Positions 22,481 to 27,266 of a DNA stretch of 41,795 nt are shown here, piece after piece. The stretch comes from an uncultured Planctomycetaceae bacterium (lineage in GTDB: Bacteria > Planctomycetota > Planctomycetia > Planctomycetales > Planctomycetaceae). Positions within the stretch are counted from its first letter, which is position 1, and the number at the start of each line of letters is the position of its first letter. The translations under genes were made by a program, and so were the position numbers. A model generated the notes under the pieces. The model saw nothing but the letters and a program-made list of their open reading frames with translations, was not told the origin of the DNA and made no database searches. The stretch is taken from the NCBI GenBank assembly GCA_903896675.1, contig CAITYU010000380.1, positions 1-41,795 on the forward strand, in the 5' to 3' direction.

Positions 22481-22595
22481 CTAGTCGAGGAATTTTCCAT
22501 CGTTTGTGATCTCAACCTCCAGCATTTTTCCGGTCTTCGACTGACCTTTCAGTTCGTAAACCGATGGCCATTCTTCGACTTCAGTGCAGGCCGCC
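22481..22595 (-). pseudogene. C-terminal remnant of a PepSY-like protein, cut by a palindromic repeat
   Basis: On the minus strand the frame reads VEEWPSVYELKG, then KMLEVEITNDGKFLD and stop. The alternation of YE(L/V), a Lys/Gly turn, (E)VEI and DGK-L is what the last repeat of PepSY-like proteins looks like. Upstream on the same strand the frame runs straight into the palindromic repeat at 22599 and loses all resemblance, so the 5' part has been replaced or lost. Assignment rests on about 30 residues. Confidence 0.4.
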
Positions 22596-22598
22596 TCC

Positions 22599-22708
22599 TG
22601 GGAGGGCGAAGCTCCTGCTGAGCCGAGCCACCTGGATCGCGCGGCTCGGCAGGAGCCTCGCCCTCCCACGATTGGATCCGGCGGCTCGGTGGGAGCCTCG
22701 CCCTTCCA
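22599..22708. repeat. REP-like palindrome, two inverted arms plus a third partial copy
   Basis: Arm 1 at 22599-22625 and arm 2 at 22642-22668 are 27-base inverted repeats with two differences, both leaving G-U pairs in one transcript; the spacer is 16 bases. A third copy of arm 2 with a few changes lies at 22682-22708. In translation the arms give GEAPAEP and GSAGASPS, peptide strings often seen in spurious planctomycete gene calls, which fits a dispersed intergenic element (from memory). No transposase is nearby. Confidence 0.85.
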
Positions 22709-22838
22709 GGGGGAACCACCGAGCACCAGTTCGGTGACCCCTTCGGGACAGCACCCGTTGGCTTCGGCCAACGGCTGGCCTTTGGATGCTTCTGCAAGTG
22801 GTGTCTCTCGTTATCAAAATACTTCTTCACACCGCGCA

Positions 22839-22933
22839 CTACCTTTGACGTTGAGTCAGATTCAGTGCCGTCAGCACTGCGATAATGGCGATGACGACCA
22901 GCAGTTCAATAAGAGTGAAGCCCTACGTGTCAC
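22839..22933 (-). pseudogene. Remnant of a DUF1559/prepilin gene with a frameshift
   Basis: Reading the minus strand, GTG at 22933 gives M-T-R-R and then loses frame; one missing G restores [17 protein letters not shown], the prepilin motif, which begins at 22922. The frame then reads TALNLTQRQR and stops at 22839, where an intact family member would continue [14 protein letters not shown]. No in-frame start exists for the motif because TAG lies directly before its Gly codon. It is therefore a broken 5' fragment of a gene like that at 1826. Confidence 0.75.
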
Positions 22934-23209: not shown

Positions 23210-24334
23210 TTACAGCAGGCTGACGACTCGGTCAGCAAGGCTTTTGTCCCGAGCTGCGTTTTCTCCGAGGATGATGTTGAGCTTCCCAGCCGCGGCGATT
23301 CTTTCCAGCGTCTCCAGCTCGCGCAATCGCATCAGTGTCGGGTTTTCAGCCAGCAGTCGGGCTGTGTTTGCCTGTGATCGCATCGCCGCTGTTTCCTCGC
23401 GACGCGCAATCAAATTGGCCTCAGCCGCTTTCTTCGCTTCCGTCACCCGGTTCATCAATTCCTTCATTTCACCGGGCAGAATCACATCGCGGATTCCGAC
23501 ACTGGTAATGGCCAGCCCAAACTGATCTGCCCGCGTCTTCAGGTCTTCGGAAAGCTGCTGGCTGACCGCGTTTTTTTCCGACAGGAACAGGTCCAGCTCG
23601 CGGGTACCCACTGCGGCGCGCAGCACCAGTTGTGCCTCTCGGTAAAGTGTCTGCCGCAGGTCTTCCGTCAGCGTGACGGCCCTGCGAGCGTCCGTGACGC
23701 GATAGGTCACCGTCGCATTGATGCGGAGAGTCACCTTGTCCGCTGTCATCAGGTCCTGACCGGTGATATCGAGGATGGCTTCCCGCAAATCAACTTCCAC
23801 AACCTGCACTTCCGCCAGTCCTCTCCAGAACGCGTGTACGCCGGGGCCGAGAGACTCTCGGTACTCCCCATCCACATACAGCAGTCCGACCCGTTCGCGG
23901 GCCACAGTGGCCAGCTCAAGAACGTGCTGCGCCATCGGCGAAGTGACAATTGTGCGGACATCCGGATGCTGCAGGCAAACTGTGCGTGCATCCACGACCT
24001 CAGTTCGCACGTGGCGCTGCCCGGTCCAGTAGACGTGGATCCCGGGTGTCAGGAGCTGGCTGAAACGACCGTCGATCCAGACCAGACCGCGCTGGTGGTC
24101 CTGCAGGTCCAGTACCACTGCTCGGCCGTTCAACGCTCCCGACCGGACAATCAGGTCCAATTGTTCATGGACCAGTTCCGGGTCACGCTGTGAAACAATC
24201 TGCAGTCGGTTTCGGTTGAAGGGGTCGAAGAAACGGTGGTGACCGGGGTCTACGAGCCCACAAAATTCGCCGTCGCGGAACAGAAGCCCCACCTCATAGC
24301 TGCGAAGCTGAACTTTTTTGAAAGGAAAACACAC
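23210..24334 (-). CDS. Slipin (SPFH/stomatin-like) family protein
   Basis: 374 residues. An N-terminal region of about 130 residues (VGLLFRDGEFCGLVDPGHHRFFDP, SQRDPELVHEQLD, RAVVLDLQDHQRGLVWIDGRF) precedes the SPFH domain (ERVGLLYVDGEYRESLGPGVHAFWRG, VEVDLREAILDITGQDLMTADKVTLRINATVTYRV), and a coiled-coil rich in Glu, Ala and Arg (EAKKAAEANLIARREETAAMRSQAN) follows. No clear N-terminal membrane helix is visible. SPFH proteins form ring-like scaffolds at membranes. The start is GTG at 24334 with GAGGTGA upstream; an in-frame TGA lies just before it, so nothing longer is possible. Confidence 0.9.
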   Translation of the reverse strand: MCFPFKKVQLRSYEVGLLFRDGEFCGLVDPGHHRFFDPFNRNRLQIVSQRDPELVHEQLDLIVRSGALNGRAVVLDLQDHQRGLVWIDGRFSQLLTPGIHVYWTGQRHVRTEVVDARTVCLQHPDVRTIVTSPMAQHVLELATVARERVGLLYVDGEYRESLGPGVHAFWRGLAEVQVVEVDLREAILDITGQDLMTADKVTLRINATVTYRVTDARRAVTLTEDLRQTLYREAQLVLRAAVGTRELDLFLSEKNAVSQQLSEDLKTRADQFGLAITSVGIRDVILPGEMKELMNRVTEAKKAAEANLIARREETAAMRSQANTARLLAENPTLMRLRELETLERIAAAGKLNIILGENAARDKSLADRVVSLL

Positions 24335-24513
24335 GACTCACCTCACCGTTGCTGAAGTACCTGATCACCGAAGAGTGCTGGCTTGAGGGGCCGTCCGAAG
24401 GCAGAACACTCGCAGAACGCATGGCTGACGAGCGGAGTGCGCGCTGGCGAACTGCAGCGCAGGACGCTGTGGTGCACACTGCAAAGCCGTCGGACATGTT
24501 TCTCACTGGTTCT

Positions 24514-24624
24514 TCAGGCAATATCAATCGCGGACACGGTCTTGATGATGACCTGGACCGGAAGCCTGAGGAAGAACAGGTGGAACCGTTCGTCGCGAAT
24601 GTCTGCCTTCTTCAGGTCACTCAT
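24514..24624 (-). CDS. Possible 36-residue protein downstream of the tRNA-like element
   Basis: ATG at 24624 is one base past the predicted end of the tRNA-like element. The frame reads MSDLKKADIRDERFHLFFLR, then a hydrophobic LPVQVIIKTVSAIDIA and stop. The composition, charged start then an amphipathic or hydrophobic end, is protein-like, but there is no ribosome binding site and the frame is also open upstream through the tRNA-like sequence. No family recognised. Confidence 0.2.
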   Translation of the reverse strand: MSDLKKADIRDERFHLFFLRLPVQVIIKTVSAIDIA

Positions 24625-24625
24625 C

Positions 24626-24697
24626 AGCTGGTTGCGGGATTCGAACCCGCAGTACCCAGATACAGAATCTGGTGCTCCACCGCTGAGCTGGCAGTCA
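24626..24697 (-). tRNA. tRNA-Gln(CUG)-like element, acceptor stem absent; likely pseudo-tRNA
   Basis: On the minus strand a cloverleaf core is plain: D stem GCTC/GAGC (loop AGCGGTG), anticodon stem CCAGA/TCTGG around loop TTCTGTA (anticodon CTG, Gln), five-base variable loop GTACT, and T stem GCGGG/CCCGC around TTCGAAT. Core at 24634-24688. The seven bases expected at the 5' acceptor side (TGACTGC) make no pair with the seven on the 3' side (AACCAGC). Conserved U8 is C and A21 is G. No CCA is encoded. A working tRNA-Gln is therefore unlikely; a decayed gene or a tRNA-like RNA remain open. Confidence 0.6.
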
Positions 24698-24852
24698 TTG
24701 ATGTTTCCCGTCACAACCCGGCTTAGGAACAGATCAGCGCAGATCTCTGCAGATGCGCTGGCTGCCACCGGACGGTCCACAACTTCGACTTCACCTGAAA
24801 ATTCAAACCCAAGGGAACCTGAGACGACAGACAGCGACGAGTGAAGAAGGTT

Positions 24853-24874
24853 CGGCTGTTTTCTGAAAAAGCCG
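24853..24874 (-). terminator. Bulged hairpin after the histidine phosphatase gene
   Basis: On the minus strand CGGCTTTTTC pairs with GAAAACAGCCG with one bulged C, 13 bases beyond the stop at 24888. Position suits a terminator; a terminal T-run is missing. Confidence 0.35.
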
Positions 24875-24887
24875 GTATGTGCGATTC

Positions 24888-25517
24888 TCAGTCGGGGTTG
24901 GTCAACTGCCAGAGGTCCGGGCCTGACTGAGCCAGCACGATGGGGGTGGCGTTCGGCACAGGAAACTGCATGACAGATTCGGGGGCCGCTTTCGTCAGTA
25001 CGCCGATCAGGCAGCGAATGGTCTGGCAGTGCGACACCAGCAGCAGGTCGTGGGTGACGTGCGGAACGTGCCGCAGTAATTCGTCGTGAGCACGCTGCGT
25101 CACCTCTGCCAGGTTTTCTCCGAGTGGAGCTTTCTGATGAAAGTGGGCCCGAAATGCACTGAACTGTGGATTTTCGCGGTATTCCGGAAATTCCGCCAGC
25201 ACGTCCTGCTCCTGGCGCCCTTCAAACAGTCCCAGGGAGCGTTCGTTGAATCCGGTGCTGGCCGGGAAGCGAAACGGTGGTTCTTGAAGTTGCTGAATGA
25301 CCAGTTCCAGCGTTTCGGATGCCCGGCCCAGACTGGAGCTGACGGCGTGAGAGATGCAGTATTTGGGGGAACCTGCGAGGATCCGTCCGGCGTCGCGAGC
25401 CTGCTGCCGACCGCACTCCGTCAGTGGCGTATCCAGTTGGCCGCAGAAGATGGTCTGTGTCTGTTGAGCAGCGTTGACTTCAGATTGTCCGTGTCGAAGC
25501 AGAATCAGATGTCTCAT
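24888..25517 (-). CDS. Histidine phosphatase family protein (phosphoglycerate mutase-like)
   Basis: 209 residues. The N-terminal LILLRHGQSEVN holds the catalytic R8-H9-G motif; LDTPLTECGRQQA, SSSLGRASETLEL (second Arg), FNERSLGLFEGR (conserved Glu) and LLLVSHCQTIRCLIG (second catalytic His) complete the family set. It transfers phosphate through a phospho-His; members are mutases or broad phosphatases, and the sequence alone does not choose. ATG at 25517 lacks a clear ribosome binding site. No operon partner. Confidence 0.92.
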   Translation of the reverse strand: MRHLILLRHGQSEVNAAQQTQTIFCGQLDTPLTECGRQQARDAGRILAGSPKYCISHAVSSSLGRASETLELVIQQLQEPPFRFPASTGFNERSLGLFEGRQEQDVLAEFPEYRENPQFSAFRAHFHQKAPLGENLAEVTQRAHDELLRHVPHVTHDLLLVSHCQTIRCLIGVLTKAAPESVMQFPVPNATPIVLAQSGPDLWQLTNPD

Positions 25518-25910
25518 GGTGGCGACTTTCCGGTTCGGATGATGATTTCCAGACCATAGGTGGAATCCTTGTATGGCTCAACACCTGCCGGTCGGAATGT
25601 CTGAAGTCTGGAAAACTTCCCGGGCAAGCAATCTGCTGCTGCCGTGATCTCAGGCACTGCGGGACATTGCGATTGCGGTGCGATCGCTGCGCAGCACATT
25701 GACGACAGGGAAATCCAATGGCTGGACCGTCCGATTTTCTGTTGGTTTTTTTGTCTGCAATCCCGGTCATGCTGAAGGTAGTGGTGATTTCTGATTGCAC
25801 TGACCGGGACATCACGGCAGAATTCCGGAAGTTCAACCTGTATCCCTGACTGATGAATTCTGTATGCCTGCGGGCTGATTGTGTGTCTGCTGCTGCAGGA
25901 CGGGTGTTCT
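25518..25910. other. Intergenic region between divergent genes
   Basis: These 393 bases separate the histidine phosphatase (minus) from the BSP-like peptidase (plus), so both promoters should lie here. I see no conserved reading frame, RNA gene or strong hairpin. There is a T7 run at 25746-25752 without a convincing stem before it. Confidence 0.4.
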
Positions 25911-27266
25911 ATGATCGCTGGCGGTTTGTTTTCAGTTCCGGGGTTGCTCAGCCTTTTCGCGATGTTGCAGTTGCCTGTGCAGGACAGCCTCCGTCTGTCA
26001 GTTCAGACTGATCGTGGCAGTGAACACTTTCGATTTCCGGACATTCCGCCGCCTGCTGTGAATGACGCTGGTGCTGAGGGCATGTGGCGTGTGATTGCCG
26101 GCCGGGCGGATGTGAATTCCGGTGGCATCACCTGCCTGAATGACGGACGAATTCCGACCAATGCTGACGACCCCCGGGGCAATTTTTTTCTGGCTGCGGG
26201 AACAGTGGAGGGCCTGATCACTCTCGATTTGCAGAAGTCCGTACCGATCGGCGAGGTTGTCAGCTATTCGTGGCACACGGGTGGCAGGGCACCGCAGGTT
26301 TACACTCTGTACGGTGCGACCGGTGATGAATCGGGATTTGTCGTTCCGGACACAGTCGCAGACGTGGCTGATCTCAGGGGGTGGACGAAGATTGCGGATG
26401 TTGACAGTCGGCCGAACGGGGCTCAGGGTGGTCAGCATGCAGTGCGATTGGATCGTGCAGATGGCGTGTTGGGGAATTTCAGGCATTTGCTGATTTCCAT
26501 ACGTTCCACGGATCGTGGTGATCGCTTTGGTCAGACATTTTTCAGTGAAATTGATGTGGTGACGGGGGATCCGGCGGAACTGCGGCGAGTGGAACTGCCG
26601 GCAGTGCGAGAGATATCATTCACGACGTCTGACAATTCTTATGAGTTTTGTGTCGAGACCACGCAGGCGCAGGAGCTGGAAGAGTGGACTGAGCGGGACC
26701 TGAAGCCAGTAATTCTGGAATGGTATCCGCGGATTGTGCAGTTGTTGCCTGGGCAGGGTTATCAGCCGCCCCGGCGGGTGCGTTTTCGTTTTCTGCCGGA
26801 TGCAGACATGCCGGGAATTCCGGCTTATGCGGCGGGCAGTGTGATTTCTCTGAACCGTGAATGGTTTCGCGGGCAGTTGCAGGGCGAGGCCCCTGGTTGT
26901 GTCGTGCATGAACTGGTGCATGTGGTGCAGCAGTATCCTGCGCGGGGGCGAAGGCTGCGTGATGGTGCGGCGGTTCCGGGTTGGCTGGTGGAGGGAATTC
27001 CGGATTACATCCGCTGGTTTCTGTTTGAGCCAGAGAGGGGTGGTGCGAGGCTGTCTGCGGAGCGTCGCCGGGTTGCGAAGCATGATGCCAGCTACCGAGT
27101 GTCGGCAAATTTTCTGGACTGGGTCATTCGTCGTCAGCCCGCAGATGCGAGGATTCTTGAGCAGCTCAATGCGGCTGCTCGAGAAGGGCGATACACGCCC
27201 GAGTTATGGCAGAAACTGACAGGCAGTACGGAACAGCAACTTGCGGAAGAATGGCGGTCCGAGTGA
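25911..27266 (+). CDS. Secreted BSP-type zinc metallopeptidase-like protein
   Basis: 451 residues. A short signal peptide (GGLFSVPGLLSLFAMLQLPV) is followed by a beta-rich domain to about residue 230 with discoidin-like features (NDGRIPTNADDPRGNFF, VGEVVSYSWHTGGRAPQVYTLYGA). The C-terminal ~210 residues match plant basic secretory protein (BSP) family peptidases: EEWTERDLKPVILEWYPRIV, then His333-E-L-V-H-V-V-Q (HExxH zinc motif), and PGWLVEGIPDYIRW with the further Glu and Asp. ATG at 25911 with AGGA ten bases upstream; an in-frame start at 25881 is less likely. Extracellular target unknown. Confidence 0.85.
   Translation: MIAGGLFSVPGLLSLFAMLQLPVQDSLRLSVQTDRGSEHFRFPDIPPPAVNDAGAEGMWRVIAGRADVNSGGITCLNDGRIPTNADDPRGNFFLAAGTVEGLITLDLQKSVPIGEVVSYSWHTGGRAPQVYTLYGATGDESGFVVPDTVADVADLRGWTKIADVDSRPNGAQGGQHAVRLDRADGVLGNFRHLLISIRSTDRGDRFGQTFFSEIDVVTGDPAELRRVELPAVREISFTTSDNSYEFCVETTQAQELEEWTERDLKPVILEWYPRIVQLLPGQGYQPPRRVRFRFLPDADMPGIPAYAAGSVISLNREWFRGQLQGEAPGCVVHELVHVVQQYPARGRRLRDGAAVPGWLVEGIPDYIRWFLFEPERGGARLSAERRRVAKHDASYRVSANFLDWVIRRQPADARILEQLNAAAREGRYTPELWQKLTGSTEQQLAEEWRSE

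Follow-up and report, generated by a model that had tools for sequence, protein, structure and literature searches.

The window, by which we mean the whole stretch of DNA that was analysed (41,795 nucleotides from an uncultured Planctomycetaceae bacterium), carries a tRNA-like element on its minus strand, between a gene of the histidine phosphatase superfamily and a slipin gene. From upstream to downstream, the features of the locus are as follows.

24888-25517, minus strand: gene of the histidine phosphatase superfamily, the upstream neighbour
24808-24823, minus strand: terminator-like hairpin with a T-rich tail, between the phosphatase gene and the RNA (weak; 1 found versus 0.6 expected in shuffles)
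24711-24731, minus strand: leader motif, a diverged form of TGTTCCGTACATGGGTTCTGA (15/21 letters), which lies upstream of the tRNA-like domain in relatives
24626-24697, minus strand: tRNA-like domain, comprising a 7-nt 5' flank, the core, a 7-nt 3' flank and the discriminator position, with the acceptor unpaired
24634-24689, minus strand: tRNA core, matching positions 9-63 of the Rfam model RF00005 (39.4 bits)
24688-24674, minus strand: D arm, part of the tRNA core
24672-24656, minus strand: anticodon arm, with the triplet CTG at 24665-24663
24650-24634, minus strand: T arm, part of the tRNA core
24587-24616, minus strand: 5' strand of the long-range helix P4 (22/22 pairs in the window; covariation in the family)
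24469-24485, minus strand: degenerate counterpart of the relatives' motif CTGTAGTGCGTGGATACCGC (alignment A4)
24433-24441, minus strand: motif CGCACTCCG, common to the relatives (profile match, alignment A4)
24391-24419, minus strand: 3' strand of P4 (nhmmer match 24441-24389, E 0.0015)
23210-24334, minus strand: intact slipin/SPFH (Band_7) gene of 374 aa (Pfam PF01145, E 1.3e-30), starting about 300 nt downstream of the tRNA core

Farther along the window, at 22481-22839, open frames on both strands read as WEGEAPAEP- and GSAGASPSQ-like repeats; this stretch looks like a repeated intergenic element, not genes.

The tRNA-like element joins a fully paired core to an acceptor that does not pair. 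As the earlier note had described from the letters, the D, anticodon and T stems are complete (4/4, 5/5 and 5/5 pairs), none of the seven acceptor pairs forms in the standard register (0/7), and U8 and A21 are changed. We confirmed each of these statements, along with the strand (minus) and the coordinates: position 8 is C, leaving the canonical U8 absent, and position 21 is G. The four inner acceptor pairs that are retained in relatives are likewise missing (0/4). With random bases, 0/7 acceptor pairs would be expected by chance in about 4% of cases ((10/16)^7). The Rfam tRNA model scored the element at 39.4 bits (cut-off 29), covering only positions 9-63 of 71. Across the whole genome this model matched 36 places, of which 35 span the full 1-71 and the window element alone is truncated. 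ARAGORN reported no tRNA over the window. Judged on these features, the element very probably does not function as a tRNA. It is also not a product of chance, since an acceptor-blind core finder gave 0/1480 matches on shuffled 1.1-kb stretches and a profile of the leader plus tRNA-like domain, built from 15 relatives, matched the window at 24733-24631 (nhmmer, E 5.4e-16).

Alignment with relatives shows the element to be the 5' domain of a predicted structured RNA located upstream of the slipin gene on the same strand. This RNA spans about 340 nt in the window and about 480 nt in relatives. At most aligned loci, the region extends from roughly 45 nt ahead of the tRNA-like domain up to about 80-130 nt short of slipin. 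In relatives it combines the tRNA-like domain with a near-invariant leader (TGTTCCGTACATGGGTTCTGA), a second hairpin and the long-range helix P4, and it carries the motifs CTGTAGTGCGTGGATACCGC and CGCACTCCG. Its helices were assessed in alignment A4, made up of the window and 15 relatives that had been selected for their recognisable motifs. Pairing in A4 reached 93.7%, versus 35-43% in slid versions, and 24 of 45 pairs carried changes on both sides, a number reached by 0/500 shuffles. None of the 500 shuffles matched A4 in the share of paired cells, the count of changed cells or the covariation score either, while 18/500 reached its number of pair types.

The window copy shares several features with this family: it lies upstream of slipin on the same strand, it has the leader and tRNA core, and it has P4. 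All 36 non-acceptor pairs tested are formed (14/14 in the D, anticodon and T stems and 22/22 in P4). Two P4 pairs have changed and still pair, one from UA to AU in the window only (249-577, alignment numbering) and one from GC to AU in common with L052 and L089 (237-588). Missing from the window copy are the inner acceptor stub of 3-4 bp, hairpin 2 and an intact central motif. A profile of the 3' domain alone found the window weakly, with two collinear matches (E 0.0015 and 0.72).

No Rfam family other than tRNA exceeded its cut-off for the larger RNA on the same strand, in either the window or L052. Over window positions 23500-26000 (E up to 1), Rfam gave tRNA plus one match far below cut-off; over L052 6300-7000 (E up to 5), tRNA was the only match on the strand of the RNA, with two antisense matches far below cut-off. 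Y RNA was not among the Rfam matches of the window and L052. Among the open frames listed between the tRNA-like domain and slipin, no conserved small ORF recurred by eye. Our literature search, which included the available portions of PMC7790460, PMC9650030, PMC10272220, PMC13086221 and PMC7824862, found neither the larger RNA nor the acceptor reduction described.

The RNA is tightly linked to slipin. Among slipin orthologues in relatives and in a scan of named genomes, which listed at least 56 slipin loci, most loci had a tRNA or tRNA-like element immediately preceding the slipin gene on its strand. The loci of the scan came from Planctomycetota, Desulfobacterota, Acidobacteria/Thermoanaerobaculia, Verrucomicrobia, Lentisphaeria, Sumerlaeota, Flavobacterium and a small number of other groups; culturable carriers of the slipin locus include Lacipirellula limnantheis, Adhaeretor mobilis, Singulisphaera acidiphila and Flavobacterium cheniae. 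A covariance model of the leader plus tRNA-like domain (R1) matched less than 1.1 kb upstream on the same strand at 55 of 65 usable slipin loci among the matches listed, and within 3 kb at 5 further loci, with a median gap to the slipin start of 427-440 nt. This count entered 61 of 177 R1 matches, the nearest one per locus, chosen by hand; some of the 61 are weak (24-40 bits, Flavobacterium) and some may be array tRNAs. By rule, 9 of 74 loci were excluded (3 with too little upstream DNA and 6 with partial slipin matches). The partial loci L067-L069 are absent from the 65, and two genomes are counted twice (L055/L079 and L057/L083).

The same association was found by genome. Among 248 genomes of the class, with up to 13 candidates scored in each, 69 contained R1 at 80 bits or more and 81 contained slipin. 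Both were present in 67 genomes, the RNA (at least 80 bits) without slipin in 2, slipin without the RNA in 14 and neither in 165 (Fisher p 9e-44, a descriptive value only for genomes related by descent). Within 1.1 kb upstream of slipin on the same strand lie 58 of the 71 strong matches (at least 80 bits), and 8 lie 1.2-2.9 kb from it. Conservation beside slipin, a check that the earlier note had proposed, is strong, both at the 55 of 65 loci listed and in the 67 of 69 strong-match genomes with slipin. A search for phage homologues of slipin gave one weak match.

Other tRNA genes and fragments accompany slipin at some loci. Large tRNA arrays (28-34 genes by ARAGORN) occur upstream of it at L077 46-5529, L081 1391-5509, L082 313-5416 and L096 2473-8134; the L096 array extends beyond slipin too, and the arrays resemble a second tRNA set. 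In Flavobacterium (L114-L121 and L123), a conserved stretch that contains GTGTTTCTGTATAGCAC and is reminiscent of the leader precedes tandem tRNA pieces (T arm; D plus short anticodon arm; T arm); the pieces lie about 450 to 270 nt upstream of slipin. We considered circular permutation for these loci, which show tandem tRNA pieces instead. At L105 5436-5569, the leader motif upstream of slipin is followed by other sequence with inverted repeats and no tRNA-like domain.

Relatives retain a shortened acceptor stem. In alignment A3, whose 25 sequences were selected for a leader motif close to slipin, the inner three acceptor pairs formed in 25/25 and the fourth in 20/25; L105, which has the leader but no tRNA-like domain, was excluded. 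The outer three formed in 9, 8 and 9 of 25, about the level of random bases. Paired cells in the other stems of A3 amounted to 100% (D), 99.2% (anticodon) and 100% (T). The window copy has lost even this stub (0/4), of which the inner three pairs are retained in 15/15 other A4 members. In comparison, 101 of 139 other tRNA cores found less than 5 kb upstream of slipin by an acceptor-blind search have 7/7 acceptor pairs. Of the 10 'proximal' cores with 7/7 acceptors, 7 were read as array tRNAs and 3, from the distant relatives L108, L112 and L113, stand in true family positions, contrary to a strict rule of acceptor reduction. An apparent tRNA-Met beside slipin in G004/G015 first seemed a normal tRNA and proved to be a family element with 6/7 acceptor pairs.

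Bacterial slipins (stomatin-type proteins) are found near RNA-repair genes. In a Citrobacter record, slipin adjoins rtcR and a nucleotidyltransferase gene; an E. coli record has slipin and the nucleotidyltransferase, with rtcR not annotated beside them. RtcB was found in 36 of 40 genomes searched and RtcR in 4 of 40, all four of which have a slipin match (only a piece in G012). RtcR, RtcB and slipin share one contig in G006. Sigma-54-like sites (TGGCAC-N5-TTGCW, up to 2 mismatches) occur about 70-95 nt before the leader-plus-core match in L093, L099, L101, L103, L113 and L127, which is 6 of the 61 RNA loci scanned and fits RtcR-type control. The same scan found none upstream of the leader in the window. 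In the parts of the cited reports available, loss of TrcR in Anabaena raises the slipin alr0740 and rtcB, with a tRNA array under the same repressor (PMC10272220), and the rtc locus of P. aeruginosa contains an SPFH gene (PMC13086221).

We consider it somewhat probable that this RNA is a tRNA-core mimic, acting as a decoy or scaffold with slipin in responses to tRNA damage. With its acceptor stem absent, such a mimic would not be expected to undergo RNase P cleavage, CCA addition or aminoacylation in the normal way. Since the D and T arms, which form the elbow, are retained along with the anticodon arm, binding would be expected through these parts. An anticodon nuclease or a tRNA-repair factor might take the RNA as bait or decoy; alternatively, it could be a scaffold that keeps such factors on a slipin ring at the membrane, as part of the response to damaged tRNA. 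The acceptor stub of relatives would be dispensable for this role and would have been lost in the window lineage. The earlier note had offered a tRNA-like RNA needing only its core, as in an mRNA leader or decoy, as one option; this agrees with a slipin-linked RNA whose acceptors are reduced in relatives while its other helices are retained. More specifically, and more tentatively, the RNA, about 480 nt long with its near-invariant leader, its hairpins, the 22-bp helix and a tRNA core whose acceptor has 3-4 bp, might form a dedicated ribonucleoprotein with slipin, the core being a decoy or docking module read through the elbow and anticodon arm; the loss in the window would then show that the acceptor is dispensable. 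A conserved RNA with a tRNA core, little or no acceptor, and slipin in nearly every strong-match genome would provide slipin with a concrete RNA partner, and this coupling suggests that slipin answers tRNA damage. It would also illustrate how a tRNA-like fold can escape charging and translation with constraint persisting on its elbow and anticodon arm.

A more conventional reading is that of a degenerate tRNA gene (Gln or His) or a scar of integration, which we regard as highly improbable. The match to the Rfam tRNA model does exceed the cut-off, and tRNA-His genes make up several of the closest matches that BLAST gave outside the genus. However, the slipin-linked family to which the element belongs has a leader and a long-range helix of its own, the genome carries Gln-CTG, Gln-TTG and His tRNA genes separately, and anticodon triplets vary among family members (e.g. 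TTA or AGG), with Leu- and Ser-type triplets on bodies with short variable arms. As the triplet drifts in this way, CTG carries no identity, and the initial label of the element as tRNA-Gln-like does not hold. We rejected a tRNA-Gln paralogue after alignment with the genome's own Gln and His tRNAs, given the same drift. A tRNA-His origin was also rejected, as similar arms account for those BLAST matches. No sign of an integration scar was noticed. In a tRNA pseudogene, pairs are lost in all arms without compensation; here, all non-acceptor pairs form and two of them are compensated. The suggestion of a recent pseudogene thus fits less well, although the degenerate motifs and missing hairpins leave room for it. 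The earlier note had also reasoned that a relative with a normal acceptor here and drift in other strains, or no conservation at all, would point to a simple dead gene. Conservation beside slipin speaks against most of this, but the complete acceptors of L108, L112 and L113 agree with one part of it.

Two further explanations are serious rivals to a tRNA-core mimic. The window copy could be decaying, its function lost in this lineage and its sequence drifting, with the acceptor gone first by chance; we consider this unlikely. Hairpins 2 and 3 are missing, the central motif is degenerate, and no match to RtcB (PF01139) or RtcR (PF06956) was found in the genome of the window (95% complete), all of which favours decay and counts against a mimic. 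Decay is also suggested by G008, a member of the same genus and the nearest relative with a syntenic copy, whose element adjoins an 83%-identical phosphatase. Its slipin is a remnant of two pieces (residues 147-161 and 231-241) fused downstream, its leader was not found (the profile match begins at model position 41), and 28/36 of its non-acceptor pairs form. The window, in contrast, retains 36/36 with compensated changes, and its slipin is open, with one deviation across 82 columns invariant in 15 relatives (81/82 retained). In this single comparison, which carries no statistic, pairs have eroded next to the slipin remnant and have held next to the intact slipin. Moreover, the window and G008 agree at 73% of positions over the RNA region (221/302), compared to 59% at fourfold sites of the phosphatase (58/98), again contrary to drift.

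Alternatively, the RNA could be the 5' untranslated region of the slipin mRNA, in which the tRNA-like fold would regulate slipin in cis, for instance through a bound tRNA-binding protein or through competition with damaged tRNA. We consider this somewhat unlikely. The shared strand and the median spacing to the slipin start favour such a leader, as does the start of the window slipin about 300 nt after the tRNA core. However, the size, the covariation and the enclosure of the rest of the RNA by P4 are equally expected of a stand-alone RNA, 8 of the 71 strong matches lie at the greater distances given above, and a simple scan of 24300-24900 found no sigma-70-like site.

Additional observations weigh against the proposed mimic. 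When 111 nt around the element were folded freely, the cloverleaf was not chosen and stability did not exceed that of shuffles (z -0.52). The window copy scores 65.4 bits with R1, less than the 80-bit cut-off and no more than ordinary tRNAs can reach (up to about 75 bits). Among the 65 usable loci listed, R1 found no match in L105, L120, L121, L122 and L124, and the complete acceptors of L108, L112 and L113 count on the same side. Nor is acceptor loss confined to the copy that has an intact slipin next to it, because the inner acceptor of G008 pairs only 1/4 in the relatives' register (GGTGG/CCACC could pair in a shifted register, by eye). Lastly, the window slipin is 62-65% identical to those of genus mates, which are 81-88% identical among themselves, and the lineage may therefore be changing role.

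Burroughs and Aravind (2016, NAR 44:8525) reportedly described SPFH/Band-7 modules of RNA-repair systems with a predicted 'novel tRNA-like molecule' as their cognate RNA. By that description, the present locus is alike in that a tRNA-like RNA adjoins an SPFH/Band-7 gene and RNA-repair genes adjoin the locus in other genomes. It differs in that RtcB and RtcR were not found in the genome of the window, the acceptor is absent and the element is embedded in a larger RNA. The Y RNA YrlA, according to the available portion of its report, is a non-coding RNA with a tRNA-like module, encoded in an RNA-repair locus (the rsr-yrlBA-rtcBA operon) and suggested as a possible competitive inhibitor of an anticodon nuclease (PMC7790460). 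Compared by description, the two RNAs share such a module and differ in partner, which is Ro60/Rsr for YrlA (PMC7790460) and slipin here. In Anabaena (trn array, TrcR, rtcB and slipin alr0740), tRNA arrays and slipin answer the same translational stress, as far as the available text describes (PMC10272220), and many relatives here carry tRNA arrays directly upstream of slipin. In contrast, the Anabaena array is on a plasmid, apart from alr0740, and the term 'tRNA-like' is absent from the available text of PMC10272220.

Upstream of the enterobacterial slipin, both L133 (4680-4860) and L134 (3680-3850) contain a sigma-54-like TGGCACGCTTCT(G/C)GCAA, a stretch with TGTTCCGTCAGCC and a T-arm-like GGGTTCGATTCCCA hairpin. 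Neither has a full tRNA core, and rtcR is annotated beside slipin in L133.
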